64,000 bases of DNA from Conchocele bisecta (lineage: Eukaryota; Mollusca; Bivalvia; Lucinida; Thyasiridae), in contig CM055279.1 of NCBI GenBank assembly GCA_029237695.1, forward strand, positions 22,075,919 through 22,139,918, written 5' to 3'. This document shows positions 37,274 through 56,682 of this stretch, piece by piece. How positions within the stretch are numbered: the stretch's first letter is position 1; every line of letters begins with the position of its first letter. Made by a program: the position numbers and the translations under genes. A model generated the notes under the pieces. The model was not told the origin of the DNA, made no database searches, and saw only the letters and a list, made by a program, of their open reading frames with translations.

Positions 37274-37278
37274 CAAGG

Positions 37279-37629
37279 AGTAGTATAAAGGGAGTCGAAA
37301 TGATACCACCTACGGTGGCATCATTTCCACCCCTTTATACTACTCCCACCACCCCCGAAAAAGTACAAATTGGTTTTAACGAGGAAATTGTTCCCACCAC
37401 CCGAAAAATCCAAAATTGGTGTCATAAATACAACATGTTGTTTTCACGTCCAATTGAACAGATAAAACGATAGTCTTAAAAAGGATTTATTTTTGTCTCG
37501 TTGTCATAAATACATCATGTTTTTTCGACAGTAAATTTATGATAAAATAATTATTTCAATGTGCCCACGAGTGATAGTTTTATATTCCAACACCCCATTT
37601 TTCTCCTCCAATATAGCTAATTTATTTCG
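37279..37629 (+). repeat. Polinton left terminal inverted repeat
   Basis: 351 bp, matching the right TIR (56329-56677) in inverted orientation with a 2 bp length difference. The outermost 66 bp (37279-37344) is an imperfect palindrome. The inner end holds an inverted copy of the last about 25 codons of the zinc-finger gene, with a one-base insertion in the TATAGTTTTATATTCC region. Confidence 0.92.
37434..37467 (+). promoter_or_regulatory. Promoter-like block in left TIR
   Basis: CATGTTGTTTTCACGTCC followed by AATTGAACAGATAAAA. The same block occurs at 37675-37709, 56024-56057 (minus), 56051-56084 and 56491-56525 (minus). No gene starts directly after this copy. Confidence 0.5.
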
Positions 37630-37674
37630 ACGATGTCGAATTGTAGTCCAATTATATTGGTGTCATAAATACCT

Positions 37675-38149: not shown

Positions 38150-38154
38150 AGAAA

Positions 38155-38797: not shown

Positions 38798-39060
38798 TGT
38801 TATGATAAACATTACCTAGTGTTGTACAATTATCAATTACACGGGTTATGAACCATACGTAAATTGATAGCCAAGGTAAACAGAGCCGAGTGTATCAATT
38901 ACACAGACGGTGTGTACAGTGTAATACTCGACTGAATTTGTAATTCTCAGTGAAAAACACATGTTGTATAGGTATGTAAATTTGTTTACTGCATCAATAT
39001 AATTTTGAAAAAATTAGGAAAATTATAAAATTAAGAAAAAAATTTTTTTTTTAAATTATT
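38798..39060. other. Noncoding gap with AT-rich repeat word
   Basis: Includes an inversion of TCAATTACAC (38834 / 38897) and, at 39001-39025, a 25 bp word starting AATTTTGAAAAAATTAGG that recurs exactly at 48586-48610. Confidence 0.5.
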
Positions 39061-39581: not shown

Positions 39582-39614
39582 AGCGACGATATTATTCAAC
39601 CTAAATCTGAACTT

Positions 39615-39712
39615 CTTTCGTTAATTGGATATAGTGTTGGTGGAGTGGTATTGAGAGTTGGATACAGTGTTGGTGGAGTGGTATTGAGAGTTGGATATGG
39701 TGATTCGTTCAT
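39615..39712. repeat. Tandem repeat, about 37 bp, 2.3 copies
   Basis: TTGGATATAGTGTTGGTGG AGTGGTATTGAGAG is repeated with TTGGATACAGTG and TTGGATATGGTG starts. It lies just past the 3' end of the fibre gene. Confidence 0.7.
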
Positions 39713-40275
39713 AGTTAAATTTATTTTAATATATTAGTATTTACACAATAAGTTCAATTAACAATGAGACAATAGTGGAAGAACTCTCTGAGTCACCGAT
39801 TTTCGTAATAAAGTTAATAACACTACCTTTGGAAAGTCTAATTCGATCATTACCGGCGAACGAAACAATCGTCGAACTATCTCCAGAGATTTTAGTGACT
39901 CCAACCCCCCGTTCTTTCCCATCTACTACAATATTTATCGCGACCGCGCCCACAGGTTTACCATTAGCATTAACCGAGCAGACCGCCATTTGGATAACTT
40001 CACCTGCAGCTGTCATAGTGTATCCCCATATTTATTACTCGCTTTGGCACCGAACGAATATTCATAGTGCCCCACAACCAATGGGCCCCGCTTCTCAGCC
40101 CAAACTGTTGTGACACGTTTTGGTGTTTTCATTGTTTTCACTATTCCGGCAAGCGCCCTGTTTGCGTTATATGCCTCAGTACGAATCTCATAAGAGGCCT
40201 CCTCAAGAGTTTCTTTGGTCGCGGCTATACGATCATGTTTCAGTTTATCAGAAACTTCGGTTATTTTTTCATCTA

Positions 40276-41828
40276 TACTGAGCAAAACTAGAAACGTCCC
40301 TCCATGTTTAAGGAAAGATTCATCAAAAACCAAAAGGGTTACTTTTAAAAATCAAAATGGAAAACAAGTTCATTCATTTTCTGTATCAAAGCAATAAATT
40401 GCATTTGGATATCTTGTTAAATATTCGAGAGATAACCGGCCAAGGGCGGTAGGGGTCAAAATCAAAAATCACAAAAACTCAGAAATGTGTTACTTAATGT
40501 TTAGAGATGGAATTTCAATAAGTAATGTGGCAAATTGAGTAAATCTCGTTAGTACCGAGTGTGGCCACCATTTGCATGAATGCATGCAATGATCCTACGC
40601 CGCATCGACGTGACGTAACGCAATACCAGTGCGTTGGGCAAATTCCTCCATTCCCGTTGTAACGCCCGTGTAAGATCGCGAACATTGTCAATCTGATGGT
40701 TAGCTCGTGCTTTGCGGCCCAGCTCATCCCATATGTGCTCAATGGGATTGAGATCCGGGGAGGACCGCGGGGCCATGGCATGACGTCGACGTTGTTTTGC
40801 TGTAAGTATTGAGTGGTGACCCTGGCTACGTGAGGGCGGGCATTGTCGTGCATCAATGTCACACCAGGACCATGCTGACGGATAAATGGTAAGGCATGTG
40901 CATTTAGCACATCTGCAACATAACGTTGTGCATTGATGTTGCCTGTACAACAACCAAATCTGTCTTCCGGTTTCCCATGATCCCACCCCAGACCATTACA
41001 CTCCCTCCCCCAAACCTGTTCTTCTCAACAATGCAACAATCGGTGAATCTTTCATTTCTACGCCTGTATACCCGTAATCTTCCGTCAGCATGACTAACTG
41101 TGAACCGAGATTCATCGGTGAACAAAACTCGGTTCCAGTCAGCCCTTCTCCAGTTCAGATGACGTCGCGCCCATAACAGTCTGGCAGCACGGTGACGTTG
41201 GGTCATTATCTCATTGGTTGGGCGTTACGACGTAACCGGTTGCGAATGGTCTGCCCTGAGACACCGTATCGCCTAGCAGTGACTGTGGCTGCCAATCGAC
41301 GTTGACGTAAGTGCGTCAACGTAATGTAACGATCGGCTCTAGCCGTCGTTACACGAGGCCTACCAGGTCGCTGCCGGTCGTGAACAGCCCCAGTCTGCTG
41401 GTACCGGGCTGCAAGACGATCAATCGTCTTCCGACAGCAACCAAACCGAGGCGCGACCGCCCTGGCGGCCCATCCCACCCGCAAGCATCCCAATTGCCTG
41501 ATTTCGCTCGTTTTCGGAAAGCCGTGGCATATCGAAAACAGTGAAAAATTAAAAAAGTTTTTTAATTTTCCGAATAGCCCCTATCGCATGAATGGTACGA
41601 CATGAACTGAATCACCTTATCGATGACAAGTATAGCGTGCACGTGCAAAAAGTGGAAATCAACGTTCCGGTCACTGGCCGCTATGTAAACCGTGTGTATC
41701 GGCTAAACTCTACACGATCGTATTCTGACTCGCCACGGTTTAAAATACATGTACTTTGAACATGTGGTACATACATAGACAGAGCTACACCGGCTATAAA
41801 ACAGGGACGTTTCTAGTTTTGTTGAGTA
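40276..41828 (-). mobile_element. Tc1-type transposon inserted in the fibre gene (1,553 bp)
   Basis: Ends TACTGAGCAAAACTAGAAAC and the near inverse GTTTCTAGTTTTGTTGAGTA are flanked by TA (40274-40275, 41829-41830). Removing the insert restores CATC-TA-GTTCGGTAAGTG, a word present intact in a neighbouring fibre repeat (41969-41984), so the insertion site is certain to the base. Confidence 0.9.
40549..41530 (-). pseudogene. Tc1-family DD34E transposase, frameshifted
   Basis: Starts MPRLSENERNQAIGML at 41530. Helix-turn-helix regions follow (CCRKTIDRLAARYQQTG and RRYGVSGQTIRNRL). The catalytic domain shows FTDESRF (first D), GGGSVMVWGGI, MHDNARPH (second D) and PDLNPIEHIWDELGR (the E), spread over three frames. 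Breaks are visible near 41450, 41207, 40930 and 40770. Length about 330 codons, normal for the family. It is inactive, so the host element could only move with a transposase from elsewhere. Confidence 0.9.
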
Positions 41829-43036
41829 TAGTTCGGTAAGTGTCGCTTTTCTGCTGAGAGAGTCCTCTAAACGCAACGCATCATAAGCCTCCGTAATGGT
41901 CGCCTGGTGGCCTTCTAAGGCTTTATCAATACCCGACCTGGCCTCTTTTTGAAATTCTGTTATTTTTTCATCTAGTTCGGTAAGTGTCGCTTCTCTGTTG
42001 ATAGAGTCCTCTAAGAGCAACACCCTATAAGCTTCCGTAATATCCGCCTGGTGGTCTTCTGGGGCTTTCTCAATACCCGTTCGGACTCCATCAAGATCAA
42101 ACCGGGTCTCTTTTTTAAATTCGGTTATTTTTTCGTATATGTCAGTAAGTGCCGCTTCTCTGTTGAGAGAGTCCTCTGAGCGTAACGCCCCATAAGCCTC
42201 CGCAATAGCCTCTTTGTGGTCTTCTCGGACCCCCTCAACCCCCGATCTGGTCTCTTTCAGAAATTCGGCTATTTTACCGTCTAGTTCGGTAAGTGTCGCT
42301 TCTTTACTATGAGAGTTCTCTAAGCGCAACGCATCATAAGCCTCCGCAATGGCCTCCTCAAGGTTCGACTGGTGGTCTTCTCGGACTTTATACAATACCC
42401 GACCGGGTCTCTTTTCGAAATTTGGTTATTTTTTTATCTAGTTCAGTAAGTGCCGCTTCTCTGATGAGAGAGTCCTCTGAGCGCAACACCTCATAAGCCT
42501 TCGTAAGGTCCGCCTGGTGGTCTTCTCGTGCTTTCTCAATACCCGACGTGGCCTCATTTCGAAAATCGATTATTTTCCCGTCTAATTCAGCAGTGTAGCT
42601 TCTTTGCTGAGAGAGTCTTCTAAGCGCAACGCATCATAAACCTCCGTAATGTCAGCCTTGCGGTCTTCTCGGGCTTTATCAATCCCCAACCGGGCCTCTT
42701 TTCTAAATTTGGTTATTTTTTTACCTAGTTCGTTTAGTTCCATATGCGTTTCTTCACGACTTTGTGTATTCACAACCAGGGCATATTCTCTAAGTTGTGA
42801 TAGTAGACTCTTGTGAATCTCGTCCGTGGCCATCGATATAGTTCTATTGATCAAGGCCTTTGTTTTTTGGGTAGTTAAAAAGTCGCCCTCTGTCGGGATG
42901 AATCCCCCTTCTGCCGGTTCCAAATTATTTGAATTTGTCACCCAATCGGAAGAACTACCTGGTCCGTATATACTCATAATGTTGATAATATATATTACGA
43001 ACATGCGTTTAATTCTAAATAATTTTCTTAAATTAA

Positions 43037-43747
43037 TTAATTTGAAATTTCTAGGACTACCGAAATCGGGTAATCGTTCTTCAACTCTCGCCCTTTATCA
43101 TCGAGAATAGAAATCTTCAACTCGTGGATGTGTCCCGATTCCAAAACTTTCATCTCGGGGTGTGGGAAGTCTAAGGTCACAGTCTCGCCATAGAAACAGT
43201 CGCTGGCGGGCACAGTTTTAAGTAATGTGCTGGGGGATCCGTCTACCGTGTTGTACGATGTGTTCACACGATCAAGGTGCACCTCGCCGTGGTAATAACC
43301 CGCGGGGAAGACAAAGTGCAACGGGAACACTCGCCCTTCATTCTCGTTGTAAGGGGGTTGATATTTAAATCCTAACATTGAGGCCAACCCCGGAGTGATC
43401 TCTAATTTTTTATCAACGTCCAATGTCGCAATCCCCGTGGCTTTTGAGACTGTGACCTTGACACAATCAGGCATACTCTTTGTGATTAAAGCTTGGACAT
43501 CTCTGACACCCCAAAGGCCGGGAGGTAATACGACAGATGATTCAATAAAATCTAAGGGTACGATAGTCTCTAACAGTCCGTCTACTACCTGCCCGACTGT
43601 GTTGATCTCCTTATACAGTTCAATGTTTTTCCATCCAACCGTGAAGGTGATTGATCTAAGGCCTACCCGGCGTTTTCCGCAGCAGTTGTCTATTAATTTT
43701 TGAAGTTCACAACTCCCTTTTTGAACATTAGTTATAGTAGCAAACAT
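43037..43747 (-). CDS. Polinton minor capsid (penton-like single jelly-roll) protein, intact
   Basis: 236 codons from ATG at 43747 (MFATITNVQKGS); an upstream in-frame start at 43777 would overlap the divergent gene and is less likely. The sequence is beta-rich with no membrane segment. Marks shared with Polinton minor capsid proteins as I know them are the internal LASMLGFKY, the TLLKTVP segment and the C-terminal ILDDKGREL...VVLEI strand. By family knowledge such proteins form the pentameric vertices under which fibres dock. It starts 14 bp from the divergent gene at 43762, implying a shared promoter region. It is one of the few fully open structural genes here. Confidence is higher for Polinton origin than for the exact capsid role. 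Confidence 0.7.
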   Translation of the reverse strand: MFATITNVQKGSCELQKLIDNCCGKRRVGLRSITFTVGWKNIELYKEINTVGQVVDGLLETIVPLDFIESSVVLPPGLWGVRDVQALITKSMPDCVKVTVSKATGIATLDVDKKLEITPGLASMLGFKYQPPYNENEGRVFPLHFVFPAGYYHGEVHLDRVNTSYNTVDGSPSTLLKTVPASDCFYGETVTLDFPHPEMKVLESGHIHELKISILDDKGRELKNDYPISVVLEISN

Positions 43748-43761
43748 AATAATATCTTTCA

Positions 43762-45211
43762 ATGGATACCAAAGCATTTAGCTTTAACTCTAATGTAAAG
43801 TACGCGGTCGGAGGTAAATACACACAAAAAGACGTTGTTAACCCCCTTGTACACCCAACCGTAACGGTTAGACCGGACAGCGGCTTTGTCACCAATTTCC
43901 CTAATATCTTTGAACAATATAGGCTGCCCAAGATTACTACGATGGAGGTGGTAAACAGGTGGAAAGCAACACCGATGCAGTTTTGGCAGAACCAATAAAT
44001 TTCGCTGTATGGTGCGCAACAGCCGGGTGTGGAGTTTCATATAAAGACCATCTGACATCCAAGAATGTCATGCTCCAAAGTGTCTACAACTTTCACGTGT
44101 ATTATACTATTAGGAGGATTCTCAAAGAACTAGGTATTTCACTACCTCAAGACGACGCCTGGGATCCCATTTCCAACGCATACGACCGTATGGCCTTTGA
44201 AAGACTGTGTAACGAATTTAACGTTTCAAAAGACGCGGACTGGAGACAGAAAGTATTTCCTACCAGCACCGGCCTCGGGGACGTTCTCATTCACGGCCAG
44301 TCCGGGAATTGGACACAGACTGATTTTAGACACGATTACTCCGGTGACCACATCGTCAGTCGGAACGCCGGGGATTTTTGACCCCGCGCGACTATGACAT
44401 TCGGGCCGGAAGTGTCTGGAGGTCGGCACTGTGGCGTGTTTTCTTGTAAAATGTTACCTCCGAAACGGGCTCACGTCGATTATATACAGCAGGCTGCTGA
44501 GGTTCAGGACGCGTGGGGTAAATTTATGTTAGATAAGGGTATAGGGTTCACGCAGGCCGGGGTTACTCGCGTCAACGACTCCATTCGCACATACGTCTGG
44601 GCCATCCTCGGCGCACAGAAGCAAACTCGCAGTTCTATACTGGGCACGGGAACGGCGTTTGATGCACAAAACAATTCTTGGCACTTGTAGAGGACGCCAT
44701 CTCAGCTAGGGTGGACCTGGAGAAGGCGATCCAGAATTATCAAGACGTTTTACAGAATGCCAGCACCCCAGTAGACTATGTATTTGGAATAGGTCTTTAT
44801 ATGGCGCCGAGCAATATGATACTACGAGACGACCCGGTTGACGGTTACAATAATCAGATCGTAATCGCCACCGCCAATCAAAAAATCGGCCACAACGGTA
44901 ACGTGAACACGGATATCATCAAGCGCACCCCCAACATGATCGGGTTCAACAGTGGAACCGATTTCATAAAACACAAAATGGATACACCTCCCCCAATTCG
45001 TAAATTGGACACACAATCGAACCCAGTACCACCAATTCGTAAATTGGATGCACCATCGAGTTCCATCAACAGACCAATCGCGATTGGAGAAACACCAATC
45101 ATCAACACCAATCGCAGATTGGGTGAAATTGGAAGCACAACACACGAGGAGGAGAAATTAGGGCTCGTCATCACCCTCGTGGCGATCGGATTATTTACGC
45201 TTTGGTTGTAG
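43762..45211 (+). pseudogene. Polinton structural-type protein with C-terminal membrane anchor, four fragments
   Basis: About 480 codons. Pieces: MDTKAFSFNSNVKYAVGGKY...WKATPMQFW (43762-43995), FAVWCATAGCGVSYKDH...YDRMAFERLCNEF (43959-44381), HVDYIQQAAE...SIRTYVWAILGAQKQTR (44394-44690), and a piece with ILRDDPVDGYNNQIVIAT plus a low-complexity PPIRKLD linker (to 45211). The end is hydrophobic (LGLVITLVAIGLFTLWL). There is one in-frame stop (44379) and at least two frame changes. The first three parts look like a soluble, well-conserved domain that I associate with invertebrate Polintons, function unknown. The C-terminal linker contains four of the CCAAT...ATTGG palindromes. It converges tail to tail with the next gene, overlapping it by about 20 bp. 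Confidence 0.6.
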
Positions 45212-46090
45212 GAACTCTCTGGCGAAGAATAGTAGGAGACCGGCGATTGTCACGATTAAAGCCCAGGTATTTTTGGCTAGCCATCCGGCCGTTTTTGATA
45301 ATATAGATAGCAAGTAAGAAACGATACTTCCGATCAGTCCAGGTAGTGCGGCAGCCGCCTTTCCTGCTAATTTAGCTAGAAGACTGGCGAGGGCTTTTAG
45401 TTGTTTTTTTATCCACTCCTTGGCTCCACCGGATGGAGCGGGTGCTGGTGCTGGTGCTGGAGCGGGTGGTGGCGCCGCACCACCAGTGAAAGCTAGAACT
45501 ATGGTCGATATAGTCATGCCGATAGCAACGAGGATGCTTGCTATCGTGACGCCCTGCTCTCTGAACAGAGTGCGAAGACGCTCACCGAGTGTCGTCTCCT
45601 CGTGCAGGACCCTCGAGATTGATTCACGGATCCGACTTATTTGTGTGCGGAGAGCCTCACGGTTAGCCGAGGCGGCCTCCAAGCGAACTTCTCTTTCATC
45701 CCGCAAAGACCGCAGTCGTTCAGCGATCCGCTCGGTAGATTCTCTATCGTCACCGGCTTCCTCCAGTTTTTTTTCTTCTAGCGCGATATGTTCATCCAGC
45801 GCCGTGAGTTTGGAGAGGTTAAGGACCAGTTCGCCCCGGACCGTTTGTAGAGCCTTATCGAGTCCACGGAGTTCTCGAAGAGGTAACGGTGGGTCATCGT
45901 TGAGTATTTCCCCCAATTGCGATTGGACGCTGAACGTGGTCTCCATCGTGTTAATAACGTCGGTGGCTATTTGAGGGACCTCTCTGAGCTCGACCGTTTC
46001 TATCGCGGTGGCCGTCTTCGCTATAGTTTCGTCGGTAGACTGTAGGGCCTCTACAGCGCGGGCCGGCACAATTGTTTTACCCCTCTTCAA
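45191..46090 (-). CDS. Polinton coiled-coil membrane protein, open, start codon TTG
   Basis: 299 codons (LKRGKTIVPARAVEALQS...). Layout: N-terminal helical part; coiled coil (about 95-165, rich in E, R, L); hydrophobic segment 181-201 (VTIASILVAIGMTISTIVLAF); an AP repeat (206-219); amphipathic lysine/alanine helices (223-270); a second membrane segment (274-290) and a basic tail. The first codon is TTG where an ATG would be expected, so the start may be mutated. It overlaps the upstream acidic gene by 4 bp (46087-46090). The function is unknown; the architecture would suit a membrane-interacting virion component. The minus-strand pairing with the acidic gene suggests joint transcription. Confidence 0.6.
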   Translation of the reverse strand: MKRGKTIVPARAVEALQSTDETIAKTATAIETVELREVPQIATDVINTMETTFSVQSQLGEILNDDPPLPLRELRGLDKALQTVRGELVLNLSKLTALDEHIALEEKKLEEAGDDRESTERIAERLRSLRDEREVRLEAASANREALRTQISRIRESISRVLHEETTLGERLRTLFREQGVTIASILVAIGMTISTIVLAFTGGAAPPPAPAPAPAPAPSGGAKEWIKKQLKALASLLAKLAGKAAAALPGLIGSIVSYLLSILSKTAGWLAKNTWALIVTIAGLLLFFAREFLQPKRK

Positions 46091-46512
46091 TCCGTGAAGC
46101 CTAGTTCGTTCTTTATGATTTCGCCACCGCCCCGGTTTCCTGCAATGGTGTTTAGCGATAGGGGTTTACCGGTCCTCGTGTTGACTATTGGAATATTTGA
46201 TGCTGCTTTTAGTCGCAATCTACCGTTCATATCAAATTTGAACTTGGAGTAGTCGCGACCGACAGAGGGGACCAGACCTTTTTCTGCTGCCAAACTGTTG
46301 TAGTAGTCGTTTACAGCTCCCTCGAGTAATTCCTGACTTTGACCAACGCTGCTGGTAGCGCCACCTATTTCCTCCAATCGCGATTGTATTGGAGGGGGGT
46401 GTTTTGTCGAAAAGGTTGTGATGGAATCCTCGAAGTTATCATCATCATCATCATAATCATCGATGTAATCGTCTCTGCCGATTTCATCCATGTCAGCATC
46501 GTAATCAGCCAT
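46087..46512 (-). CDS. Polinton acidic protein, open
   Basis: 141 codons from ATG at 46512 (MADYDADMDEIGRDDYIDDYDDDDD): a very acidic N-terminal 30 residues, a polar middle and a basic C-terminal part (RLRLKAASNIPIVNTRTGKPLSLNTIAGN). No membrane segment. Divergent from the capsid gene, with an 88 bp gap that contains TAATTTTGAAAAAATTA (46581-46597). The role is unknown; an acidic head might bind a basic partner, as scaffolds or core proteins do, but nothing proves it. Confidence 0.6.
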   Translation of the reverse strand: MADYDADMDEIGRDDYIDDYDDDDDNFEDSITTFSTKHPPPIQSRLEEIGGATSSVGQSQELLEGAVNDYYNSLAAEKGLVPSVGRDYSKFKFDMNGRLRLKAASNIPIVNTRTGKPLSLNTIAGNRGGGEIIKNELGFTD

Positions 46513-46600
46513 CTTTAATAATGTGTTTACAAAATTAATTATGTATTAAAGACAAAACCATACGGGTTTAATAGTTTCAATAATTTTGAAAAAATTAATT

Positions 46601-47895
46601 ATGTCTTCGAGTCAATACGGTCGCAAACTCAATCCATACCGCAGACTGCGTGAGCCCTCGGGGCAAAAGGCGTGAGACAGAGTGTCGTTATTACGAACAA
46701 CCCATCGACGATCGACCAGAACCAGCAGCTCTTAGTCCGCTTCCCCAACCTCAGAGCTAACGACGTCATTGTGCCGTGTACTGTTCGCCTCGCTTTCACT
46801 ATTTCGCTAACGTCGACGGACGCGGACCGAACCGTCGTTCAGAACCTGGGTCGCGCCATCGTCAAGAAGACCATGATAAAGATTTCTGGTAATGAGGTGA
46901 TGTCGATCGACGACAGCGACGTCTACCATTGCTATCAGGACCTGTGGAAGACGTCACACGAGCTCGAAAACGCTGTCTATCAAGGTATTGACACCAGCAA
47001 AAATAAGAACGTAACCAAACTTAGAATCGGGGCTGCTAACAAGGTAGATAACAACGCTAGTGACAACGCGGTCGCGGGCGCTTACGGCAACCGCTTCTAC
47101 ATCCCGCTCGACTTTGAGTTGCTGGAGAGTCACATGCCCTACTATCAGAGCGCTTTGGCTGACCGCCTCTAATACGAACTAACGTTCAACGACTACGGCC
47201 GAGTTATCACAGCCAGCGACATGTTATCGACGTATACGATCGATAATGTTTCGCTGGAGTACGACATGGTCACGATGCCCGAACTCGCGCGATTGATCAG
47301 AACCCAGTAGCGCCGGGCGCGTTGCCATACTTTACGACCGAGTTCTTCGCCATCGTAAGATGCCGAAAGACAAAGGCGACACATTGTGGAATATTAACGT
47401 CAACGTACCCGCCCGCTCGATGAAAGGTATACTGATGCTGTTCGAGGATGCTCGGTTCGCGTTCGGTGCTAGAAAACCGACAGATTCTATAACGCCAAAA
47501 TCACGAAGGTAGAGGTGACGATCGAGGGAGTCCCCAATCAACTCTACAGCGCGGGTCTTCGCGCGCACCAGCAGTGGGACGAAGTAAGAAAGCAGTTTGC
47601 TGCCGGCTCTAAGCGCTCTCCGGAGGTTGCAGCAGTTGCAAAAGACCTGCATCTCTCGGCCGTCTCCCTCGCGGAGTTGCTGAATACCAAATACGCGTTA
47701 TGGCTAGACATGCGAGCCAGCGACGATGACCAAATACACGGTAGCGGACGCCAAGTTGAGAACGCTAGTGAGGGTGTGACGATCCAGATAACCAAAGAGG
47801 CGGACGGAGCCGGGCCATTGAACGTGTACTTATATATAATTACAGACGCACAACTCAACATCGAAGATGGTCGATACGTATCAGCGATCTACTGA
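46601..47895 (+). pseudogene. Polinton major capsid protein (double jelly-roll), several breaks
   Basis: ATG at 46601 (MSSSQYGRKLNPYRRLREP). A frame change near 46672 leads to the first jelly-roll part (RQSVVITNNPSTIDQNQQLLVRFPNLRANDVIVPCTVRLAF...FYIPLDFELLESHMPYYQSAL). There is an in-frame stop at 47170-47172, then continuation to another stop at 47308-47310, a shifted frame (PKDKGDTLWNINVNVPARSMKGILMLFED) and, after about 47485, the open C-terminal part (ITKVEVTIEGVPNQLYSAGL...GPLNVYLYIITDAQLNIEDGRYVSAIY). About 430 codons in all. The PNQLYSAGLRAHQQWDE segment and location just before the ATPase are typical of Polinton capsid genes as I know them. In the virion it would form the hexon-like shell. 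Confidence 0.75.
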
Positions 47896-47952
47896 TTTAA
47901 TAAAAAAATATACTAACGATTTATTAATACATAATTCTAAAGAAAAAAATTA

Positions 47953-48576
47953 ATGAAATATATCAATCAATACCAATTCACGATTGGAGATGCTCACTCT
48001 GCCATAATATGTGGGCAGACAGGATGTGGAAAAACGGTTTTCATCCTAGACTTGCTCGAGGGCTCCTACCGCGATGCCTTTCGTCATATTGTGATCCTGT
48101 GTCCCACTGTGCGGCACAACGATACTTATCAGCGGCGCCCGTGGGTATGGACCGACCCTGAGGTATACGTTATTGACCCGGGTGATAGGCTTCACGATTG
48201 GTTGCGTGGTTTATACCAAATATTTCAGGGCGAGCCCACCCTATACGTGATTGACGATTGCTCGGCCAAGGCGGCGATGACCAAAAAGAAGGACATGCTC
48301 TCCGAGCTCGCATTTTCTGGCCGCCATGCTAGACAAAGCGTATGGATATCCACTCAAAAATACAACGCCGTCCTCAAGGATCTGCGCGAGCAAACGAAAT
48401 GGGTCGCCCTCTTTCACTGCAAGGACCGAGACTCATTCGATGACTGTCTTCGAGAGAATGACGTTATCCCAACGCGCGAGGAGCGCCTGGAGGTTCGACA
48501 GTTGCTTTCCGAAACTAAGCACGCCAAGCTTCTGCTAAAGACTGATCAACCAACTGCTTATAAAGTTATCAATTAA
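47953..48576 (+). CDS. A32/FtsK-HerA-type genome packaging ATPase, intact
   Basis: 207 codons. Walker A GQTGCGKT at residues 21-28, Walker B LYVIDD at 97-102, and a sensor-like SVWISTQ at 129-135. The layout and length match Polinton packaging ATPases. It would pump element DNA into preformed capsids. ATG at 47953 directly follows an AT-rich leader (TAAAGAAAAAAATTA), 57 bp after the capsid gene. A CCAATTCACGATTGG palindrome overlaps codons 7-12, so it alters or supplies the start of the P-loop strand. No lesion was seen, which stands out in a decayed element. Confidence 0.88.
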   Translation: MKYINQYQFTIGDAHSAIICGQTGCGKTVFILDLLEGSYRDAFRHIVILCPTVRHNDTYQRRPWVWTDPEVYVIDPGDRLHDWLRGLYQIFQGEPTLYVIDDCSAKAAMTKKKDMLSELAFSGRHARQSVWISTQKYNAVLKDLREQTKWVALFHCKDRDSFDDCLRENDVIPTREERLEVRQLLSETKHAKLLLKTDQPTAYKVIN

Positions 48577-48585
48577 TTAATAATT

Positions 48586-48610
48586 AATTTTGAAAAAATT
48601 AGGAAAATTA
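48586..48610. promoter_or_regulatory. 25 bp AT-rich word repeated at 39001-39025
   Basis: The word begins AATTTTGAAAAAATTAGG. A shortened form lies at 46582-46597, right before the capsid ATG. It is palindromic in part (AATTTT...AAAATT). It could be a late-promoter or termination signal; inferred from recurrence only. Confidence 0.4.
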
Positions 48611-48619
48611 CAAAGTATA

Positions 48620-48728
48620 AGCTAATTGCAATGCTTGCAATTGCTGAACAATGCTTAGCAATTGCTGAACAATGTTCTGAACAATGCTGAACAAATGCTG
48701 AACAATGGTTAACAATGTTAACAATTTG
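48620..48728. repeat. Iterated GCTGAACAATG / AACAATG array
   Basis: About nine copies of AACAATG-type words, four of them TTGCTGAACAATG or close, with GCAATGCTTGCAATTGC and TTAACAATGTTAACAATTT dyads. The array lies in the gap after the ATPase gene and before the next gene. Iterons of this kind often bind a protein; possibly a regulatory or origin-like site. Confidence 0.6.
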
Positions 48729-48864
48729 GTGCTCCGCTGCTAGCTTTGTTGCGAGCATAATGGTGATCATAAGTATCGGGTGGTGCGCATTTATTATTTT
48801 TGTAATAAATAAATATGTTAAAGTGATGAGAGTTGTTAGAATAGTTAAATTAATTTTAAGAAAA

Positions 48865-49508
48865 ATGAACTGCGACGAACTTCTCGATCAGCGAATAGAA
48901 CAAACCTCAACTCCGACTGCCAACGATAATGAAACATCAACTCCGACAGAGCAATCGGGATCGGGGGTTGGTATTGGGTTGAGTGCAACGACTCCTAATG
49001 AAAATGAAAATGCGGCGCGACGAGAGCGACTAGCTGCGCTGGTTGCTGGGGGACAATCGGAGCATTATCTCGGTAGGCGTCTCTCAGTTTTTCAGGTGGA
49101 TAAGATGTCAGATGCGGAGATCGATAAAATGTATGCGCGATACGAATCCAAATTGGGAGCAGAGATCACAAAAACTCTTGGATCGGCGGCTATTCATTTG
49201 TACGCTACCACCGTTATTATACTTCTCCCTATACCAAACACCGAAGGGTTGATTCACGATCTAGAGACTGACCCTTTTATAGGACACACTCTTAGAACGG
49301 CATGTCTGCTCAATTTATCACAAGTTTGGAATGTACTTAGCTCCACTAACAACCGCGTTGACCACGGGTAAACACTGTCAATTTGGACATATATGCCCAC
49401 GAACAATAAGCCCTGAAAATGATGACACAAGACACACCCACGAGAGTGACGGAGTTGAACCAGATTGCTCCAACACAATCGAACCAGAGTGTTACTCCAC
49501 CACTGGAT
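48865..49508 (+). pseudogene. Polinton membrane-associated protein, one frameshift
   Basis: Start chosen at MNCDELLDQRIEQ (48865); the frame is open upstream to 48715, but that part crosses the iterated array. N-terminal 50 residues are a T/S/N-rich disordered stretch. A helical domain follows (RRERLAALVAGGQ...MSDAEIDKMYARYESKLGAEITKTLGSAAIHLYATT) and then a conserved-looking LIHDLETDPFIGHTL. The frame changes near 49318, after which a Cys/His segment (GKHCQFGHIC) continues to about 49508, past a stop at 49369 in the old frame. The function is unknown. It overlaps the following gene start at 49419. Confidence 0.5.
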
Positions 49509-49908
49509 GATATACCGCATATAAAAAATCCCAAAAGACAGGCAGCTGGGCGGGCGGCGGCTGCACCGAAAAGTTAAACAAGATAAAATACTCGCCGAGC
49601 TTCGAGAGGCTAAACTCCAATCGAGATTGGGGTTGCAATCGGTGACGGAGACAGCAAAACATCTGAAGACAGAGTTGAGTACAACAACACCCCCAATTCA
49701 CGAATTGGAAGCACACTCAAATTATTTGAATTTGTCACCCAATACCAACTCCCGTTGGAGTTTGACTGAACCCCAATTCACGAATTGGAGTTGGTTTGTT
49801 GGTGGTAGTCTGGCAGTTGTTGGTGCCCTGTGCGTTTGGAAATACCCGAAAAAACAACCAGCCAGTGTTCAGAAGAAAGTTACGAAACACCAATCATCAA
49901 CAATGTGA
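49419..49908 (+). pseudogene. Polinton single-pass membrane protein, one frameshift
   Basis: ATG at 49419 (MMTQDTPTRVTELNQIAPTQSNQ), basic PKRQAAGRAAAA stretch, frame change near 49575, a helix (KILAELREAKLQSRLGLQSVTETAKHL), then a linker made largely of CCAATTCACGAATTGG-type palindromes (49693-49708, 49745-49758, 49773-49788). A hydrophobic segment (WFVGGSLAVVGALCVWKY) and a basic tail end the protein. No family was recognised. Confidence 0.5.
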
Positions 49909-49970
49909 ATTTGGATGCGCCCCATTTAAACATTGATCGCGACCCCTTTTTATATGCAATAATTATAACA

Positions 49971-50203
49971 ATGGCTGAACAAGATGGTAAAATGTTAGTG
50001 AATTCGCTTTATCACGCCGTGGTGATATCGGGTTTCAGTATCGGGTATGCTCGACTATCAAAGATGGCCCTAGGAGGAACCGCTCCCAAATTGGACTTTA
50101 CTGTGAGAGACGTAGGGCTCGCGACCTTAGATGTAGCGGCCGCAGTTTGGACCGAGATTATCTAGTTAAAGCTGGAATTCTACCAGTTAATATATGGAAA
50201 TAA
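49971..50203 (+). pseudogene. Small Polinton protein, C-terminal frameshift
   Basis: ATG at 49971 (MAEQDGKMLVNSLYHAVVISGF). The frame stops at 50165, but after a one-base shift at about 50160 it continues with LVKAGILPVNIWK to a TAA at 50201-50203, immediately before the next ATG. About 78 residues. A weakly hydrophobic N-terminal half and VGLATLDVAAAVW helix suggest a small membrane-associated protein. The longer open frame beginning at 49830 belongs to the previous gene's reading region. Confidence 0.5.
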
Positions 50204-50620
50204 ATGGCTTCAATCGCAGTAATAGTAGGTGGTGCGCTTGTAAACGCATTGGCGTTCAGCGGTAGCAACTTTATATTCTCTAAAATGAAAAGCTCGAACG
50301 TGGATGAGGAGCGTAAGCGCCATGATTTAGCTGTAGAACAACTCAATAGCGCAAAGGAAGCGTGGTCGAAAAAACGAACCGCCCATCTGGACTGGGTCAA
50401 TGAAGAGCTTCGCCGCGAAAATCACGCCGCGCAAACTTTTCAGAACGTTGAAGAAGCCAACCGCGAGTACGCGCTGGCATATCCGCACAAAAGTCTCGAT
50501 CCAATGGATCCCGAGCCCCAACTTTCAGATTTCTATGTACCGTCAGAGGCCCAAAAGGACCGCGAGATCGCGTTCATCGTCGTGGGAATGGTTGTGGTTG
50601 GGCTCGTCGGTACTATATAA
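50204..50620 (+). CDS. Polinton two-pass coiled-coil membrane protein, intact
   Basis: 138 codons. Hydrophobic N-terminus (3-25, VGGALVNALAFSGSNFIFS), a charged helical/coiled-coil middle (about 35-90, with KKRTAHLDWVNEELRRENHAAQTF), a DP-rich turn (98-112), and a C-terminal hydrophobic segment (121-138). The ATG follows the TAA of the previous gene directly, so the two are likely to be expressed from one transcript. No enzymatic motif. A family commonly seen next to the ATPase and integrase genes of Polintons, to my knowledge; function unknown. Confidence 0.65.
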   Translation: MASIAVIVGGALVNALAFSGSNFIFSKMKSSNVDEERKRHDLAVEQLNSAKEAWSKKRTAHLDWVNEELRRENHAAQTFQNVEEANREYALAYPHKSLDPMDPEPQLSDFYVPSEAQKDREIAFIVVGMVVVGLVGTI

Positions 50621-50664
50621 AATAATTAATTAATTAAAAAAACATAATATATATATATAGAACG

Positions 50665-51018
50665 ATGTTAGTTGACGAACTTTATGACGCTATGATCGAT
50701 GTAGGCTACACTGCCCAAAAACATCGTTTACCTGGTGCAAAGAGTATGATTCGTCTGGCCCGAGATTCTCTCGAGACGTGGCGCCAGGACGAAAAAGAGG
50801 CCACCCTTTTCGCAAAGCGGATGTTAGATTCCTCCATCAACAATGTTGAATTAGATTCCCCTCTCCTGTTCCAACCCAAACGCGATTGGGGCTGCAGCGA
50901 AACTTCCAACAAAGGTTTATTATTAACGACGCAGTTACCGGACGAACTGGCGAGGGCATGTTGGAGATTGTCCGATATATTAGAATACTTCGCATACGAT
51001 GAACACGCGCAAACTTGA
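50665..51018 (+). CDS. Small Polinton protein, intact
   Basis: 117 codons from ATG at 50665 (MLVDELYDAMIDVGYTAQKHRLPGAK). Mostly helical and polar, with no membrane segment. Its middle carries a CAAACGCGATTGG palindrome (about 50877-50889, encoding PKRDWG). An (AT)n stretch 17-30 bp upstream (50646-50659) could act as a TATA element. It overlaps the integrase start by 20 bp. No family was recognised. Confidence 0.5.
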   Translation: MLVDELYDAMIDVGYTAQKHRLPGAKSMIRLARDSLETWRQDEKEATLFAKRMLDSSINNVELDSPLLFQPKRDWGCSETSNKGLLLTTQLPDELARACWRLSDILEYFAYDEHAQT

Positions 51019-52020
51019 TACCAAACTAACGCGCAAGCTGTCAAATACATACTATAGCCCGCGCGGCTACTGGAAGGGACTCGCGGCCATCAAGAACCTC
51101 GCGGCGGCGACCAAGGTTTCAGAAAACGCTGTCAAGGAATGGCTCAAGAAGCAGGCCATCTGGCAGATCTATTTACCCGCGCCTCACAATATTCCGCGCC
51201 CGAAATTCGACGTGCCGGTACCGAACCAAGTTCACCAGCGGATCTCCTGTTTCTACCTCACGATCGCGTCGGTCGCAAAACGTACAAGTACGCACTGACA
51301 ATCGTTGACGTAGCGAGTCGTTATAAGGGGGCTGAGCCGTTGGCCACTAAAGAGTCTAAGGAAGTGGCCGAGGCTCTTTCCCGAATATATAAGAGGAGTC
51401 CTCTCAAATGGCCGAATCTTCTCCAGGTCGATCCCGGCCGCGAGTTCATGGGCGCGGTCTCTCATCTATTGTCTAAGCACGAAGTTTCTATCAGACGCGG
51501 CCGCGTCAACATCCACCGGGACCAGGGGATCGTGGAGCGCTTCAATCGAACCCTGGCTGAGAGACTGTTCGGACACCAATACGCTAAAGAACTTGTAGAC
51601 CCTCATTCGCGATCGACCGAGTGGGTGGCCAGACTGCCCGCCGTGGTCTCCGCACTGAACGGAGAGGTGACCAGATTGATAGGTAAGAAGCCTATAGATG
51701 CTATCAAGTTTAAAAGGGTGACGAGCGAGCATTCTGCCGTCTCGCGCGGGCGACCCGTTGGTTTAGAGGAGCAGCAATCGGCGATTGCACTTCCATCAGA
51801 TATTGACGTCCGGTACCTCTATCAACCGGGAGAGCTTGAAGGTGGCAGCCGCCGCGCGACTGATCCCGTGTGGTCAATGAATGTATATCATCTGGATCGC
51901 TCTATTACCAAACCCGATGAGCCCGTGCTCTATTATTTGGCTGATGGGCCATCTCGCGGTTTTGTTCGCGAAGAACTTCTTGCGGTGCCTTCTGACACCC
52001 AGTTACCTCCGATTACTTAA
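50999..52020 (+). pseudogene. Polinton retrovirus-type (rve) integrase, one frameshift
   Basis: ATG at 50999 (MNTRKLDTKLTRKLSNTYYSPRGYWKGL). An N-terminal helical domain with NAVKEWLKKQAIWQIYLP is followed by a frame change near 51236. The core has ADLLFLPHD (first D), LQVDPGREF (second D) and GIVERFNRTLAE (E), the DDE triad. The C-terminal region (PVWSMNVYHLDRSI...YYLADGPSRGFVREELL) resembles the chromo/SH3-like tail of such integrases. It joins element ends to host DNA and makes the 5-6 bp target duplication. The TAA at 52018 overlaps the polymerase stop codon on the other strand. A GCAATCGGCGATTGC palindrome (51774-51788) lies in the C-terminal part. Confidence 0.88.
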
Positions 52021-55000
52021 ATCAATAGAGGTTCTGTATGTATTCCGTCTGGTAACACGCGTCTTTTATCGTAGTATGCCGAGAGTCCTAATTTTTGTTG
52101 ACAGTACGTTTTCATAACGCCGTCTTTCATTTTAAATCCTCTACATCTATAATGTGTTTTCCATCTTCTGTAGTTTCACTTAGTACTCGTTTATATCTAT
52201 CCCAATTTAAATTGTTAGTTCTCTTGGACATTCCTTTCGCAGAGTTTTTATTAATAGAATTAAATTTTTCTATAAAATAACACTTACTAGATAACGCTAT
52301 CGCCCTATCTCCGCTGAATTCCATTTTGAAAAGTCCTGGCTCTCTTTCGCTCCATTTATCCCAAGCCAACCATTTATTTTTTTCTTTTTCAAACTCGTCT
52401 AGTAAGTTAGGTCTAATCAATTCCTCTATCGTTTTTCCACTAACTCCTATATACATACTATCTGTATCCATCTGTAATTCAATCAAAGTCTTCTCTTTTT
52501 ACGTATTTATCTAGAAATTCGTAGTAAAATTCCAACATTCTCAATTTAGCTAGTTGATAAACCGCTATTCCACAATGGAATGGTCTCTTTACCGCACACC
52601 TGGGTTTTCTTGAAGATATTTCGTACGCATCTCCTATCTCTTCCAAATCGTCAAAGAATGCAGATCTTAATGCTTTGTCAACACAGGTTTCGTTTTGTGT
52701 ATATGTCGTATTTAAATGTCTCTCCGTTGCCTCTATCATTTTTCCACAACACGAGTTTCCTAATAATTTCATTATGTCGGCTACTGGTTTCTTATTTGGT
52801 TCTACATCGCCTGTTCGTCTTGCGGCTGTAACTTCTTTTTTGCGAACCATTCGAATGGTTTTCCACTAATATAATCTATAACACGATGAACTCCAGTTAT
52901 TTCTAGGCCGTGTTTTAAATACCATTTCAACAGTGGCGCGTACAGCAATACTTTAGTGGCGGTCATAGATCCCACCAATTTTCTTCCATTTCCTCTAGTT
53001 CTTCCAGTATCTTCCAAATATTTTAACATGTGTGTGGGAACTTCATCAACCTCTACTTCTCTGTTTATAAATTTTGGGACATTTCAGAAAACTTATGTTT
53101 TTTAAGTTGTGTGGAACTTCTATATCCACCTCCGCAAACCCAAACCAGTCTCCAGATAAAACTCTTTTACAAAACTTTTTAATAAATTTATTTAGGGTTA
53201 TGTGGGGTATCTATATGGTGTATAGTTTTCTCTCCCACACGGCATCTCTTTATTTAACGTAGATAAATATAACGCGTTTGCATCGTACCCCAAAACAGCC
53301 TTGCAAGGTTTGTTGTTAATTTCATTTGAGGAATTAGATCTAATATTTGAAACACCAGCTTCTGCATATCGTGTAAATTACTATTGATGGACCGCCAACT
53401 AGAGCGTCCTTCATCATTTCGTATGTTTCTTCTTTTGGTGCATATAGAGCATCCTCCGGTATAATCGTCTTTGAAGATTTTTGTTCTTTAATGGTTCCTC
53501 TCAATAAATATTGTATAGCTACTCCAGGTAGTGTTACCGCATCTTTGAAAACATCACACCTCTGTGTTTATAAAATTCACATTTTTTCCACCGCTTCTAG
53601 GAACGGTGCTACATCTAAATCGTTATAATATTTCAACCAATCTCTGAAAGTTTTCATATTATTTTCTTCGAAAATTCTACGACATTTACTTAATTCTGTT
53701 TCGTCTATTAACATTTTCCCAGATAGTTTGGAATACCAATTCTCTATATCCGGTAGTCCTGGGTAATCCAGTTTGTCTGGAGAATCGAACCACTCATAAG
53801 GAAAGAAAAGATTTCTGTCCTTTGCATTCGTAGGCTTTTATCGAACTATCGTAACTTACACCGGGTCCTAGATAAAGTATTACATCAAGAAATCTAAACT
53901 CTGGAGTAAATAGAAATATTGTTGCGTTTGCACGTTTTCCGACCATTACTTTTCTTTGTTGTTGATGCCAGTTCGCCTACTAGGTATTTCTTTATTAAGT
54001 TTATATCGTACTACTGCTGTTAAAACCTATAACCGGTACTTGCTCTATCCACTGTTCGATCTTGGCGATTTGGTTTTTACGTAAATGTTCTGTATTAAAC
54101 CTATATCTTGACCACACTTCTTCTCTTATAACTTTTCCCCTGACTTTCAAATCTTCTACGAATTTTTCTATAAGTTTTGCGGGATCTTTATCACAAATAT
54201 GAGTTACTGTTCTGAGAAATTATCTCCTATACTAACGCTTGCCGGAACGTGCTCAGCTTCGTACTCTAAACTATTACCGGTAGTTTCAACTTCTTGTTGG
54301 AGATACGCCTCAAAATCGTATACTATCTGATATGGATAAAGAGTAGTGTCACAACCGATCTTTATATCTTTACCCGTTCTTTGAAATTCGCATTCCCACA
54401 TAACTACTAGGTTGAATTCTTTGCTTTTTTCTAATAACTTTATCTCTTCATAGTGGATGCGCGTTCTTCTTTTCTATGCTTTGCATGAATCTCACACCCG
54501 TGCCAGTAACAGCCGTGATATTGATATACGGTATTGGTTTCTGGACAGTATCCATCTACCGGAGCTCCTAAAATCCATCTTTCACCTCCGTGTCCACACT
54601 GTTCGTGGTGAATGTGAATTCCCTCCCGCTTTTCCACAGAATACATCCAATCGATCGCCCCATAACTGTTAGAACCTTTTGGGTAAAACGCTTTCTCGAA
54701 CGACGAACGCGGGCGCTCTAAATAATTACCATCACATATTACTTTTGTCTCACCTCTCATACATGTTGGTCCGTGTCTCTTCATTATTACTCGCTTTCGT
54801 GAATTTCTGCTTGCAATTATCGCAGGCATAAATTTTAGATAGGTTTTTAAGGTTTTTTATCAGAAAATGCGTGATTATTAAACAGTCCTATTGTCATTGG
54901 TTTATTACCTATTGCCTTATAGTGCGCTGGTACCTTTTTCAACCACCATACATTACATTCAGTGGGTTGATATACTTCTATACCGATTTTAAAAAACTCT

Positions 55001-55989
55001 TCAACCTTTTCAGATCTGAAAAAGAAATTGGTGAAACCACATTACTACCGAAATATTGCTTACTAAGTTCTTTCGCCTTTTCTGTACATCTGTCAGGTCT
55101 GATCTTTTTATCAAGGTGCATAGCTAGACACCTGAACAGACAAAGATCGTCATTATACTTATCTAAAGAATACATACCTTTTCTATTCCTCAACCATTCT
55201 GGAAGTTCTCCTCCTGCTGCTTCTTTGGATTGTAGTCCCAAATCTATTCCCCTACTACCTGTATTAGCTTTACAAAAACCTCTACCCATCTTTCAAAAAC
55301 TTCCACTTTGTATTTGGTCTGTCTATTTTATCGGACATTATTCGTGTTTGCTCCTTATCTGACAGCCATTTTTTAACGGTTTTCATTGATGATAGTGGTT
55401 CGCTACCACCGAGATTTTTGTGAAATATTATAATTTTAGGTTTTCCATTTTTCATTTCCTCCATATGTTCTAGCTTGTAAGAATATGAATATCTCAAATA
55501 AAAATTGGTTGTTAGATACGGAGCGAGTTTATCGGACATGCGTTCAGACTCGTTAATGTTAATGTTTTTACGAAAGGATAATGTAACTACCCGTCTTCCA
55601 TTTTCTACCTTTTCCAATGTTTCATCGTGAGCCCCCAATATTTCTTCACCTTTTTCCACTATCGCGCTAACGATAGATTTTTTCTTATTATTATTTTGGC
55701 GTCTAATTTGGGACAAATTATTTGTGCTTGAAGGTTTGATTACACTAGCCCTTAACCCCGCAATACTTTCTTTTTGAATTCTGTTACCTACTTCCTCCGC
55801 TTTGGATATATCTTTAAAGGCTCCTCGTTTGTGGGCGCGGGTAAACCGCTTCATAAACGCCTCATTCTTTGTGGAGTTTATAAGATTTGTCAACCCCCTA
55901 ACTCTCAACCGTTTACTATAAGTAATCCCTAGAGATTCGGCTTCTCTTCTCAAACTTTCGATTTCTGCTCTAGTTTCTGACGTTATCAT
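52017..55989 (-). pseudogene. Polinton protein-primed family B DNA polymerase, heavily frameshifted
   Basis: About 1,320 codons. From the N-terminus (55989, MITSETRAEIESLRREAESLG): a basic disordered region; a DDLCLFRCLAMHL domain (about 55150-55110); a Cys-containing segment with GPTCMRGETKV (54780-54740); an endonuclease-like block ILGAPVDGYCPETNTVYQYHGCYWHGC (about 54570-54490); the exonuclease motif VYDFEAYL (about 54320); polymerase motif A YDANALYL (about 53280-53257); motif B KLLGNSCCGKM (about 52770-52740); motif C DTDSMYIG (about 52460); and the C-terminus KTYCQQKLGLSAYYD...HTEPLLI ending at 52017. At least eight breaks, densest in 53050-54200. It would replicate the element DNA from a terminal-protein primer, which may be the N-terminal region. 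Convergent with the integrase. Confidence 0.88.
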
Positions 55990-56023
55990 ATTTTCTGTAA
56001 TATACTTTTGTATAACCTATGCA

Positions 56024-56057
56024 ATTTATCTGTTCAATTGGTCTTGAAAACATTATG
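56024..56057 (-). promoter_or_regulatory. Promoter-like block for the polymerase gene
   Basis: Reads on the minus strand CATAATGTTTTCAAGACC then AATTGAACAGATAAA, 35 bp before the polymerase ATG. It is arranged head to head with the block at 56051-56084, forming a divergent promoter. Confidence 0.55.
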
Positions 56058-56084
56058 TTTTTTTCACTTCTAATTGAATATAAA
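56051..56084 (+). promoter_or_regulatory. Promoter-like block for the zinc-finger gene
   Basis: CATTATGTTTTTTTCACTTC then TAATTGAATATAAA, 21 bp before ATG 56105. ATATAAA sits at a TATA-like place. Confidence 0.55.
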
Positions 56085-56104
56085 CATAAACATATACATA
56101 TATA

Positions 56105-56403
56105 ATGGAGTGTGAGACTTGTTGTAAGACGTTTACGCGTAAAGAATATCTACGAAGGCATCTAGCGAGACGTAGAAAAATTCCTTGTGTCCCCCGCAAT
56201 TTCAATGCCCCAGATGCCCTTGTAAATTCATTAGTGCCCAAACTCTTTGTAGACATAAGCAACTACACTGTCAGGTGGCTACATGTGAACGTGGTAGACT
56301 AGAGCTGGTAGAATTAGTTGCTGATCTGCGAAATAAATTAGCTATATTGGAGGAGAAAAATGGGGTGTTGGAATATAAACTATCACTCGTGGGCACATTG
56401 AAA
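56105..56403 (+). pseudogene. C2H2 zinc-finger/leucine-zipper protein at the Polinton right end, one frameshift
   Basis: ATG at 56105 (MECETCCKTFTRKEYLRRHLARR): one C2H2-like finger with C3, C6 and H19, then a frame change near 56185-56200 into CPRCPCKFISAQTLCRHKQLHC (a second finger) and a C-terminal coiled coil ELVELVADLRNKLAILEEKNGVLEYKL. About 99 residues. The last about 25 codons lie inside the right TIR. A small sequence-specific DNA-binding dimer beside the TIR could bind the element ends or the shared promoter block; that is inference. Confidence 0.6.
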
Positions 56404-56677
56404 TAATTATTTTATCATAAATTTACTGTCGAAGAAACATGATGTATTTATGACAACGAGACAAAAATAAATCCTTTTTAAGACTATCGTTTTATCTGTT
56501 CAATTGGACGTGAAAACAACATGTTGTATTTATGACACCAATTTTGGATTTTTCGGGGTGGTGGGAACAATTTCCTCGTTAACCAATTTGTACTTTTTCG
56601 GGGGTGGTGGGAGTAGTATAAAGGGGTGGAAATGATGCCACCGTAGGTGGTATCATTTTGACTCCCTTTATACTACT
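56329..56677 (-). repeat. Polinton right terminal inverted repeat
   Basis: 349 bp, inverse of the left TIR. The outer 66 bp (56612-56677) is the palindrome, and 56491-56525 is the promoter-like block (minus). Its inner end is coding for the zinc-finger C-terminus. Confidence 0.92.
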
Positions 56678-56682
56678 CAAGG

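Follow-up and report, generated by a model that had tools for sequence, protein, structure and literature searches.

The Polinton and its short palindromes

The window, a stretch of 64,000 nucleotides from the bivalve Conchocele bisecta (assembly GCA_029237695.1, contig CM055279.1, positions 22,075,919 to 22,139,918 of the forward strand), contains a Polinton of ~19.4 kb bounded by terminal inverted repeats, and a family of short CCAAT...ATTGG palindromes (dyads in the following) is embedded in its genes (Table 1). The element resembles Polinton/Maverick transposons in its long terminal inverted repeats (arms of about 360 bp) and its A32-type packaging ATPase, and probably also in a capsid-type protein and an integrase-like gene, both with Pfam matches under the cut-offs. 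The ATPase, the capsid-type pieces and the integrase-like gene lie in a structural-gene half (~43-52 kb) with genes on both strands; open reading frame (ORF) pieces at 52.1-54.9 kb resemble protein-primed DNA polymerase B by eye.

The strict pattern CCAAT-N(0-12)-ATTGG was found 11 times in the 64 kb, 10 times within 44993-49784 and once at 37648. With spacers of 3-8, 9 dyads were observed in 44000-50500, compared with means of 0.05, 0.10 and 0.18 (maxima 1, 2 and 3) in 1000 simulations under Markov models of order 1, 2 and 3; in the whole element (37278-56678) there were 10, compared with means of 0.16, 0.24 and 0.31 (maximum 3). Among the 5-mers tried as dyad arms in 44-52 kb, CCAAT showed the greatest excess (9 vs 0.36). 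Synonymous-codon shuffles within 13 ORF pieces gave a mean of 1.04 and a maximum of 5 (2000 shuffles) vs the 9 observed, so the amino acids do not account for the dyads, which occur in every reading frame and in genes of either strand. The dyads are a DNA-level family and not a protein motif. They are placed in variable linkers, e.g., ahead of the conserved HSAIICGQTGCGKT of the ATPase or, in gene A, in the stretch that joins the conserved body to the hydrophobic C-terminus.

These controls bear out two proposals of a first-pass annotation made from the sequence, namely that the dyads exceed chance and that protein selection does not explain dyads read in different frames. All eleven sequences that it listed are present where it had placed them. 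Its count of at least twelve dyads includes three (49745, 50877 and 51774) that are degenerate and fall outside the strict pattern, and of its at least seven ORFs five have dyads of the strict pattern and the remaining two of a loose pattern only.

Table 1. Features of the Polinton in the window (positions are those of the window)
Feature	Position	Strand	Location	Remarks
Left terminal inverted repeat, about 360 bp	37278..37634	+		pairs with 56324-56678, mostly 96-99% complementary
CCAATTATATTGG	37648..37660		just inward of left terminal repeat	
Gene A, 3' piece	44663..45211	+		ORF; variable tail about 44930-45160 contains four dyads
Dyad CCAATTCGTAAATTGG	44993..45008		gene A tail	read PPIRKLD
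Dyad CCAATTCGTAAATTGG	45032..45047		gene A tail	read PPIRKLD
Dyad CCAATCGCGATTGG	45074..45087		gene A tail	read RPIAIGE; copy L026 without dyad, 12 nt shorter
Dyad CCAATCGCAGATTGG	45108..45122		gene A tail	read TNRRLGE; enclosed by outer CCAATC...AATTGG
Gene B	45191..46165	-		ORF
Dyad CCAATTGCGATTGG	45913..45926		gene B	read QSQLGE on - strand
Gene C	46087..46545	-		ORF
Nested dyad CCTCCAATCGCGATTGTATTGGAGG, longer form at 46374	46371..46395		gene C	read PPIQSRLEE
Capsid-type gene, in pieces	46654..47895	+		ORFs; Capsid_N E 7.9e-5, just under Pfam cut-off; strict dyads 0
Packaging ATPase	47941..48576	+		Pox_A32 PF04665 E 5e-10, above cut-off
Dyad CCAATTCACGATTGG	47973..47987		ATPase variable N-terminus, directly ahead of conserved HSAIICGQTGCGKT	read YQFTIGD
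Gene D, small protein	49525..49908	+		ORF; one hydrophobic segment by eye; dyads: three strict, one loose
Dyad CCAATCGAGATTGG	49617..49630		gene D	read LQSRLGL
Dyad CCAATTCACGAATTGG	49693..49708		gene D	read PPIHELE
Loose dyad CCAACTCCCGTTGG	49745..49758		gene D	
Dyad CCAATTCACGAATTGG	49773..49788		gene D	other frame, read PQFTNW
Gene E	50638..51018	+		ORF; decayed dyad 50877, plus variable site near 50901
Decayed dyad CAAACGCGATTGG	50877..50889		gene E	
Integrase-like gene	51058..52020	+		rve E 1.6e-5, under Pfam cut-off
Dyad GCAATCGGCGATTGC	51774..51788		integrase-like gene	12-nt presence/absence polymorphism
Right terminal inverted repeat	56324..56678	-		inverted arm matching 37278-37634

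Copies of the element in the genome

In the genome from which the window comes (1.89 Gb), CCAATN{3,8}ATTGG occurs 50,579 times, compared with 10,562 times for the reversed pattern, and the first 100 places listed were mostly clustered. Twenty stretches were fetched at dyad clusters, and all 20 had tblastn matches to ORF pieces of the window Polinton (L013 to one piece only; L-numbers denote individual copies of the element), with no strict dyads inside the capsid-type matches of these stretches. Most of the sampled dyads of the genome fall in copies of this Polinton. The opening 2.3 Mb of C1 held about 17 dyad clusters.

A second sample of 20 copies, chosen by hand from lists of ATPase places (13 + 7) without regard to dyads, contained 57 dyads in 57 kb; 200 order-1 simulations gave 0.475, with a maximum of 3. 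The genome search with the ATPase returned at least 11,720 first-look candidates, and all 150 scored candidates share 96-100% identity with the ATPase of the window, so the expansion looks recent. The counts suggest that Polinton copies number in the thousands; they may make up some 10% of the genome, provided that most are long.

Anatomy of the dyads and their alleles

In the window and the dyad-picked copies, the 128 nearest CCAAT...ATTGG pairs at distances of up to 40 bp were spaced by 4 bp in 44 cases, by 5 in 17 and by 6 in 29, whereas in the reverse order (ATTGG..CCAAT) only 1 of 43 pairs was spaced 4-6, and there was a minor peak at a spacing of 7. In most cases the unit reads CCAAT(T)C-NN-G(A)ATTGG, with two arms, a T/A run of one or two letters and a centre of 2 bp; CCAATTCGTAAATTGG and a few other dyads deviate from this form. 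As a hairpin it could form a stem of 5-7 bp with a loop of about 3-5 nt. Identical dyads recur at several sites across 41 copies, which were also used for the allele counts below (CAATCGAGATTG at 9 sites, CAATCGCGATTG at 8 and CAATTCACGAATTG at 6; the sites were separated by flank similarity, and these counts are therefore upper estimates).

Filled and empty alleles were scored in anchor tables, because automatic multiple alignments had split the dyads; copies without detectable anchors were excluded (the table for gene C 46374 placed 13 of 53 sequences), and "filled" was called from the left part of the dyad. The least ambiguous site is E 50901, with 29 vs 41 nt between the anchors (6 filled and 10 empty among 16 scored), where six copies read GCGA[CAATCGCAATTG]TACTTCC and the empty allele GCGA-AACTTCC. 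At integrase 51774 the anchors are separated by 6 vs 18 nt (7 filled and 24 empty among 31 scored), at D 49617 by 16 vs 28 nt (15 filled, 13 of them perfect and two without the right arm, and 14 empty among 29 scored) and at D 49848 by 26 vs 38 nt (3 filled, one of which, L047, has the left arm only, and 22 empty among 25). The distances at B 45913 are 17 vs 29 nt; L014, L016 and L028 lack the CCAATTGCGATTGG dyad there and are 12 nt shorter, and L014 and L016 differ around the site too. At A 45074 the allele of L026 is the shorter one, its dyad missing (Table 1). In gene E, four copies (L015, L021, L049 and L050) have a perfect CCAATCGCGATTGG where the window has the decayed CAAACGCGATTGG at 50877. 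Filled plus empty alleles at one site, as found here, are also a trait of Rickettsia palindromic elements, and they fit the guess of the first-pass annotation that a tiny inserting palindrome is tolerated in linkers.

Some of the longer alleles are nested. At 49896, CCAATC[GCG]ATTGG stands vs CCAATC[ATCAACAATGTTGAAT]TTGG (11 vs 23 nt), so that copies show either CCAATCGCGATTGG or nearly identical arms enclosing ATCAACAATGTTGA, 12 nt longer. Near 49674, GGTTCAAC[AGT]GTTGAG stands vs GGTTCAAC[TTCAATCCCGATTGG]GTTGAG in a three-state ladder, the added CCCGATTG being an inverted copy of the adjacent CAATCGGG, and in gene C at 46374 differing dyads lie within similar outer arms from copy to copy. 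In 3 of 10 hand-picked events the shorter allele is the centre of a palindrome with arms of 6 or more, vs 2.6% of random positions.

A further family, TCAACA..TGTTGA, was counted 18 times in 7 contexts in the 20 dyad-blind stretches (0.07 simulated), where CCAAC..GTTGG is in excess as well (11 vs 1.2 simulated). Compared with shuffled sequences, two linkers form better folds as single-stranded DNA (z -3.2 and -3.5), and one of them was also scored as RNA (z -2.2). Inversion of a dyad in place (CGAG/CTCG in gene E, CGGCG/CGCCG in the integrase) was considered and set aside: the pairs are suggestive, yet one or two substitutions suffice to produce them.

Relatives beyond this genome

Gene A has 25 protein relatives, with a similar body, a similar hydrophobic C-terminus where the sequence reaches it, and other linkers. 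Outside the genome, 23 gene A relatives contain 2 dyad-compatible peptides in 1434 amino acids of tail (shuffle mean 1.0), compared with 4 in 80 amino acids in the window. The packaging ATPase has 1143 protein relatives (120 among the matches listed), and a dyad-compatible peptide was found in 1 of the 118 ATPase N-termini from outside the genome. Relatives that keep the amino acids and lack the dyads had been named as evidence that would speak against the proposal; what the comparison returned is of another form, with bodies kept and linkers differing. Judged from proteins only, the dyads would be absent from other Polintons, and the family seems young and lineage-specific.

No related element DNA from outside the genome was found in scans of IMG/VR, GTDB contigs and phage records with the ATPase and an ATPase profile; three short matches in GTDB contigs (28-35 residues, 39-43%) were taken as unrelated P-loop ATPases. 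Four ATPase relatives (P0004, P0016, P0027 and P0029) with 78-82% identity are annotated in metagenome-assembled genomes (MAGs) of Candidatus Thiodiazotropha, two of them named after clam hosts, and are perhaps Polinton DNA of the host in the MAGs.

Comparison with known palindromic elements

The nearest known kinds are the palindromic elements of Rickettsia and the organelle palindromes of Volvox. The former, as described in passages of PMC10969869, are palindromic families of about 150 bp that are often inserted in frame in unrelated coding genes. The Polinton dyads are like them in that one palindromic family occupies many unrelated coding places (up to 9 sites here), and unlike these bacterial elements of ~150 bp with a conserved peptide in that they measure 12-16 bp, share no peptide and reside in a eukaryotic virus-like transposon. 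The palindromes of the Volvox carteri mitochondrial and plastid genomes, according to portions of PMC2670323, are 11-79 nt long (50 nt on average), with stems of at least 4-5 nt, loops mostly of 3-5 nt and TAAA/TTTA loops; they are often inserted into one another and lie in intergenic or intronic organelle DNA, with one exception in rRNA. Short stems, loops of 3-5 nt, families at many places and nesting are all found in the Polinton too, although there the setting is coding linkers of a nuclear element, not noncoding organelle DNA, and the sequence is another. The PARCEL repeats, in the parts of PMC2996958 that describe them, are tandem coding repeats of 25 residues with dyad symmetry and a conserved amphipathic pattern, linked to mobile elements in some taxa. 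They share with the dyads the combination of coding sequence and dyad symmetry, whereas the dyads are isolated, short and without a common peptide.

No such Polinton dyads were mentioned in the listed titles and abstract openings of open-licence literature on Polinton/Maverick palindromes, hairpins and packaging signals and on coding palindromes, and a word search of a Maverick paper (PMC8097293) returned no such internal palindromes.

Other features of the element

The window copy has its genes near 44.0-44.7 kb and 46.6-47.9 kb broken across several ORFs. Several other proteins of the structural half had no Pfam match above cut-off, and gene B had a sub-cut-off match to HTH_31. At its outer end (37279-37344) the terminal repeat forms a long imperfect palindrome, AGTAGTATAAAGGG...CCCTTTATACTACT, and a terminal hairpin could form at its tip. 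Both flanks of the element (36809-37263 and 56678-57869) carry tandem repeats, whose units of 168-169 bp are similar, and the Polinton seems to have been inserted into, or to be located between, satellite-like arrays. In its left half, ORF pieces inserted at 40515-41580 resemble a Tc1/mariner-type transposase by eye, and 144-bp tandem repeats at 41832-42731 correspond to 48-residue repeats in minus-strand ORFs. TTTTGAAAAAATTA occurs identically at 39003, 46584 and 48588 on the + strand, in AT-rich stretches outside the main ORFs, and from its position may be a promoter-like motif. The gap between the ATPase and the next gene (48629-48726) contains ~10-bp units of TGCTGAACAA with CAATGCTTAGCAATTG dyads and varies among copies.

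Origin of the dyads

A non-random family that is read in several frames and occurs at many sites, with filled and empty alleles, 12-nt steps, nesting and arms that are not especially conserved, would be accounted for if micro-palindromes spread by short, hairpin-centred, in-frame insertion and were tolerated in linkers, an explanation to which we attach about even chances. In a single Polinton lineage, micro-palindromes (core mostly CAATC-NN-GATTG, 12-16 bp) would have multiplied within the structural-gene half. New units would arise as short insertions, often of net +12 nt, and nesting would result where some of them take the place of the loop (3-4 nt) in a small palindrome already present. 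Replication of the Polinton type is regarded as protein-primed and strand-displacing. Strand displacement would lay bare long single strands, on which the arms of short hairpins could serve as landing places for template switching: a growing 3' end in a CAAT/CAAC arm would pair with the arm of another hairpin, or fold back on itself, copy a few bases inverted and then return. A palindromic unit would be left behind, at times within the loop of an older unit, and selection for an intact frame would retain multiples of three in the linkers. The direction of change, the template switch and neutrality are the parts of this scheme that we infer. More tentatively, hairpin-loop-targeted, template-switched selfish palindromes of 12-16 bp might represent a new size class of elements that insert into one another and lengthen linkers by ~12 nt per step.

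A number of observations weigh against insertion. Length steps of 9, 11, 15 and 18 occur besides those of 12, and selection is partly responsible for the steps being in frame; one 12-nt step adds GGGCTGCAGCGA in gene E, which is not a CCAAT dyad, and several filled/empty pairs swap 3-5 nt in addition to the 12 gained and are no pure insertions. At D 49617, L030 and L043 read TCCAATCGAGATCGGG, i.e., the filled allele minus 12, and L020 reads it minus 11. Fifteen of 16 aligned copies have the ATPase dyad, which hence offers no filled/empty contrast. No target-site duplication, as expected of miniature inverted-repeat or other cut-and-paste transposons, was seen by eye in the filled/empty pairs, nor was a candidate enzyme found. 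The ten events of the palindrome-centre comparison were chosen by hand. On the gene trees, the allele states need at least 5 changes at integrase 51774, 6 at D 49617, 2 at E 50901 (gene F tree) and 1 at D 49848; the filled copies are scattered on the integrase tree, which is weakly supported (no starred branch). To account for the change counts at the integrase and D 49617, copies must have recombined, or dyads must have been gained or lost repeatedly. Inter-copy recombination or repeated precise loss would also give this scatter, so that the change may run in either direction. Finally, in the dyad-picked sample the arms differed at 28/800 positions (3.5%), the loops at 32/409 (7.8%) and the flanks at 319/2240 (14.2%). 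The argument from arm conservation was dropped, because the choice of copies by their dyads and indels in the flanks had inflated it and the dyad-blind sample showed no difference.

It is rather unlikely, though a serious alternative, that no palindrome is inserted at all and that ancestral dyads are copied and lost by slippage, tandem duplication, deletion and recombination among linkers that look alike and are free in length. The 44993/45032 pair resembles a 39-bp tandem duplication by eye, losses of 11 and 12 nt are seen at D 49617, many indels in the linkers are not palindromic, and the ATPase and integrase gene trees disagree, so that copies may recombine. Such processes fit poorly with the units at E 50901 and integrase 51774, which have no flanking repeat, with palindromes that sit in the loops of other palindromes, and with the identical 16-bp dyad at 49693 and 49773, positions that lie 80 bp from each other and are read in different frames.

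Equally in the unlikely range, we consider, is that the dyads are cis-acting DNA sites for a dimer of the element or the host (packaging, replication or late expression), spread and kept by selection, as the first-pass annotation had suggested with a zinc-finger protein of the element in mind. Their regular anatomy, mostly a half-site CCAAT(T)C about a 2-bp centre, and the sharp spacing peak (90 of the 128 pairs spaced 4-6) would suit bound sites, as would their distribution, with 9 of the 10 window dyads within 42900-52100 and none in the polymerase part. The terminal repeats also hold CCAAT half-sites (4 per 360 bp vs a mean of 0.94), an excess that is small and was picked post hoc. The arms, however, are as variable as their surroundings: at five sites of the dyad-blind sample, with 9 to 15 of the 20 copies placed per site, differences were found at 27/600 arm positions (4.5%), 15/300 loop positions and 54/1284 flank positions (4.2%), so that the conservation of arms above flanks typical of protein-binding sites was not seen. 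The decayed dyad CCAAACGCGATTGG is common to many copies, and many copies lack sites. The equal change of arms and flanks and the decayed dyads speak against maintained binding sites, although copies that are dead after integration dilute the signal, and the suggestion of maintained DNA sites was not borne out. The inter-arm distance, moreover, varies by 2 bp, which is poor for a fixed dimer and good for a hairpin with a 4-nt loop. No zinc-finger family matched any of the ten ORF pieces scanned against Pfam. NF-Y and NFI were considered as candidate CCAAT-binding factors; the NFI site of adenovirus origins (TTGGC-N5-GCCAA) has its half-sites oriented opposite to those of the CCAAT dyads.

A linear protein motif (PPIxxLD/E, QSRLG/E) with fortuitously palindromic codons is very improbable and already contradicted: PPIRKLD (twice), PPIHELE and PPIQSRLEE are alike, but RPIAIG, TNRRLG, YQFTIG and PQFTNW come from other frames, the synonymous shuffles fall far below the observed count (1.04 vs 9), and the tails of the 23 gene A relatives hold 2 compatible peptides in 1434 amino acids, with a shuffle mean of 1.0.

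Implications

If the dyads are sites to which a protein binds, they would become candidates for packaging or replication signals within Polintons. If instead they spread by hairpin-centred insertion, palindromes well below the size of the Rickettsia elements, and below that of most of those in Volvox, could proliferate inside coding DNA, and one source of the fast evolution of linkers in virus-like structural genes would be explained. Because many near-identical copies reside in one genome, single events of gain or loss can be read, and the spread of organelle and Rickettsia palindromes, an old question, would become testable.

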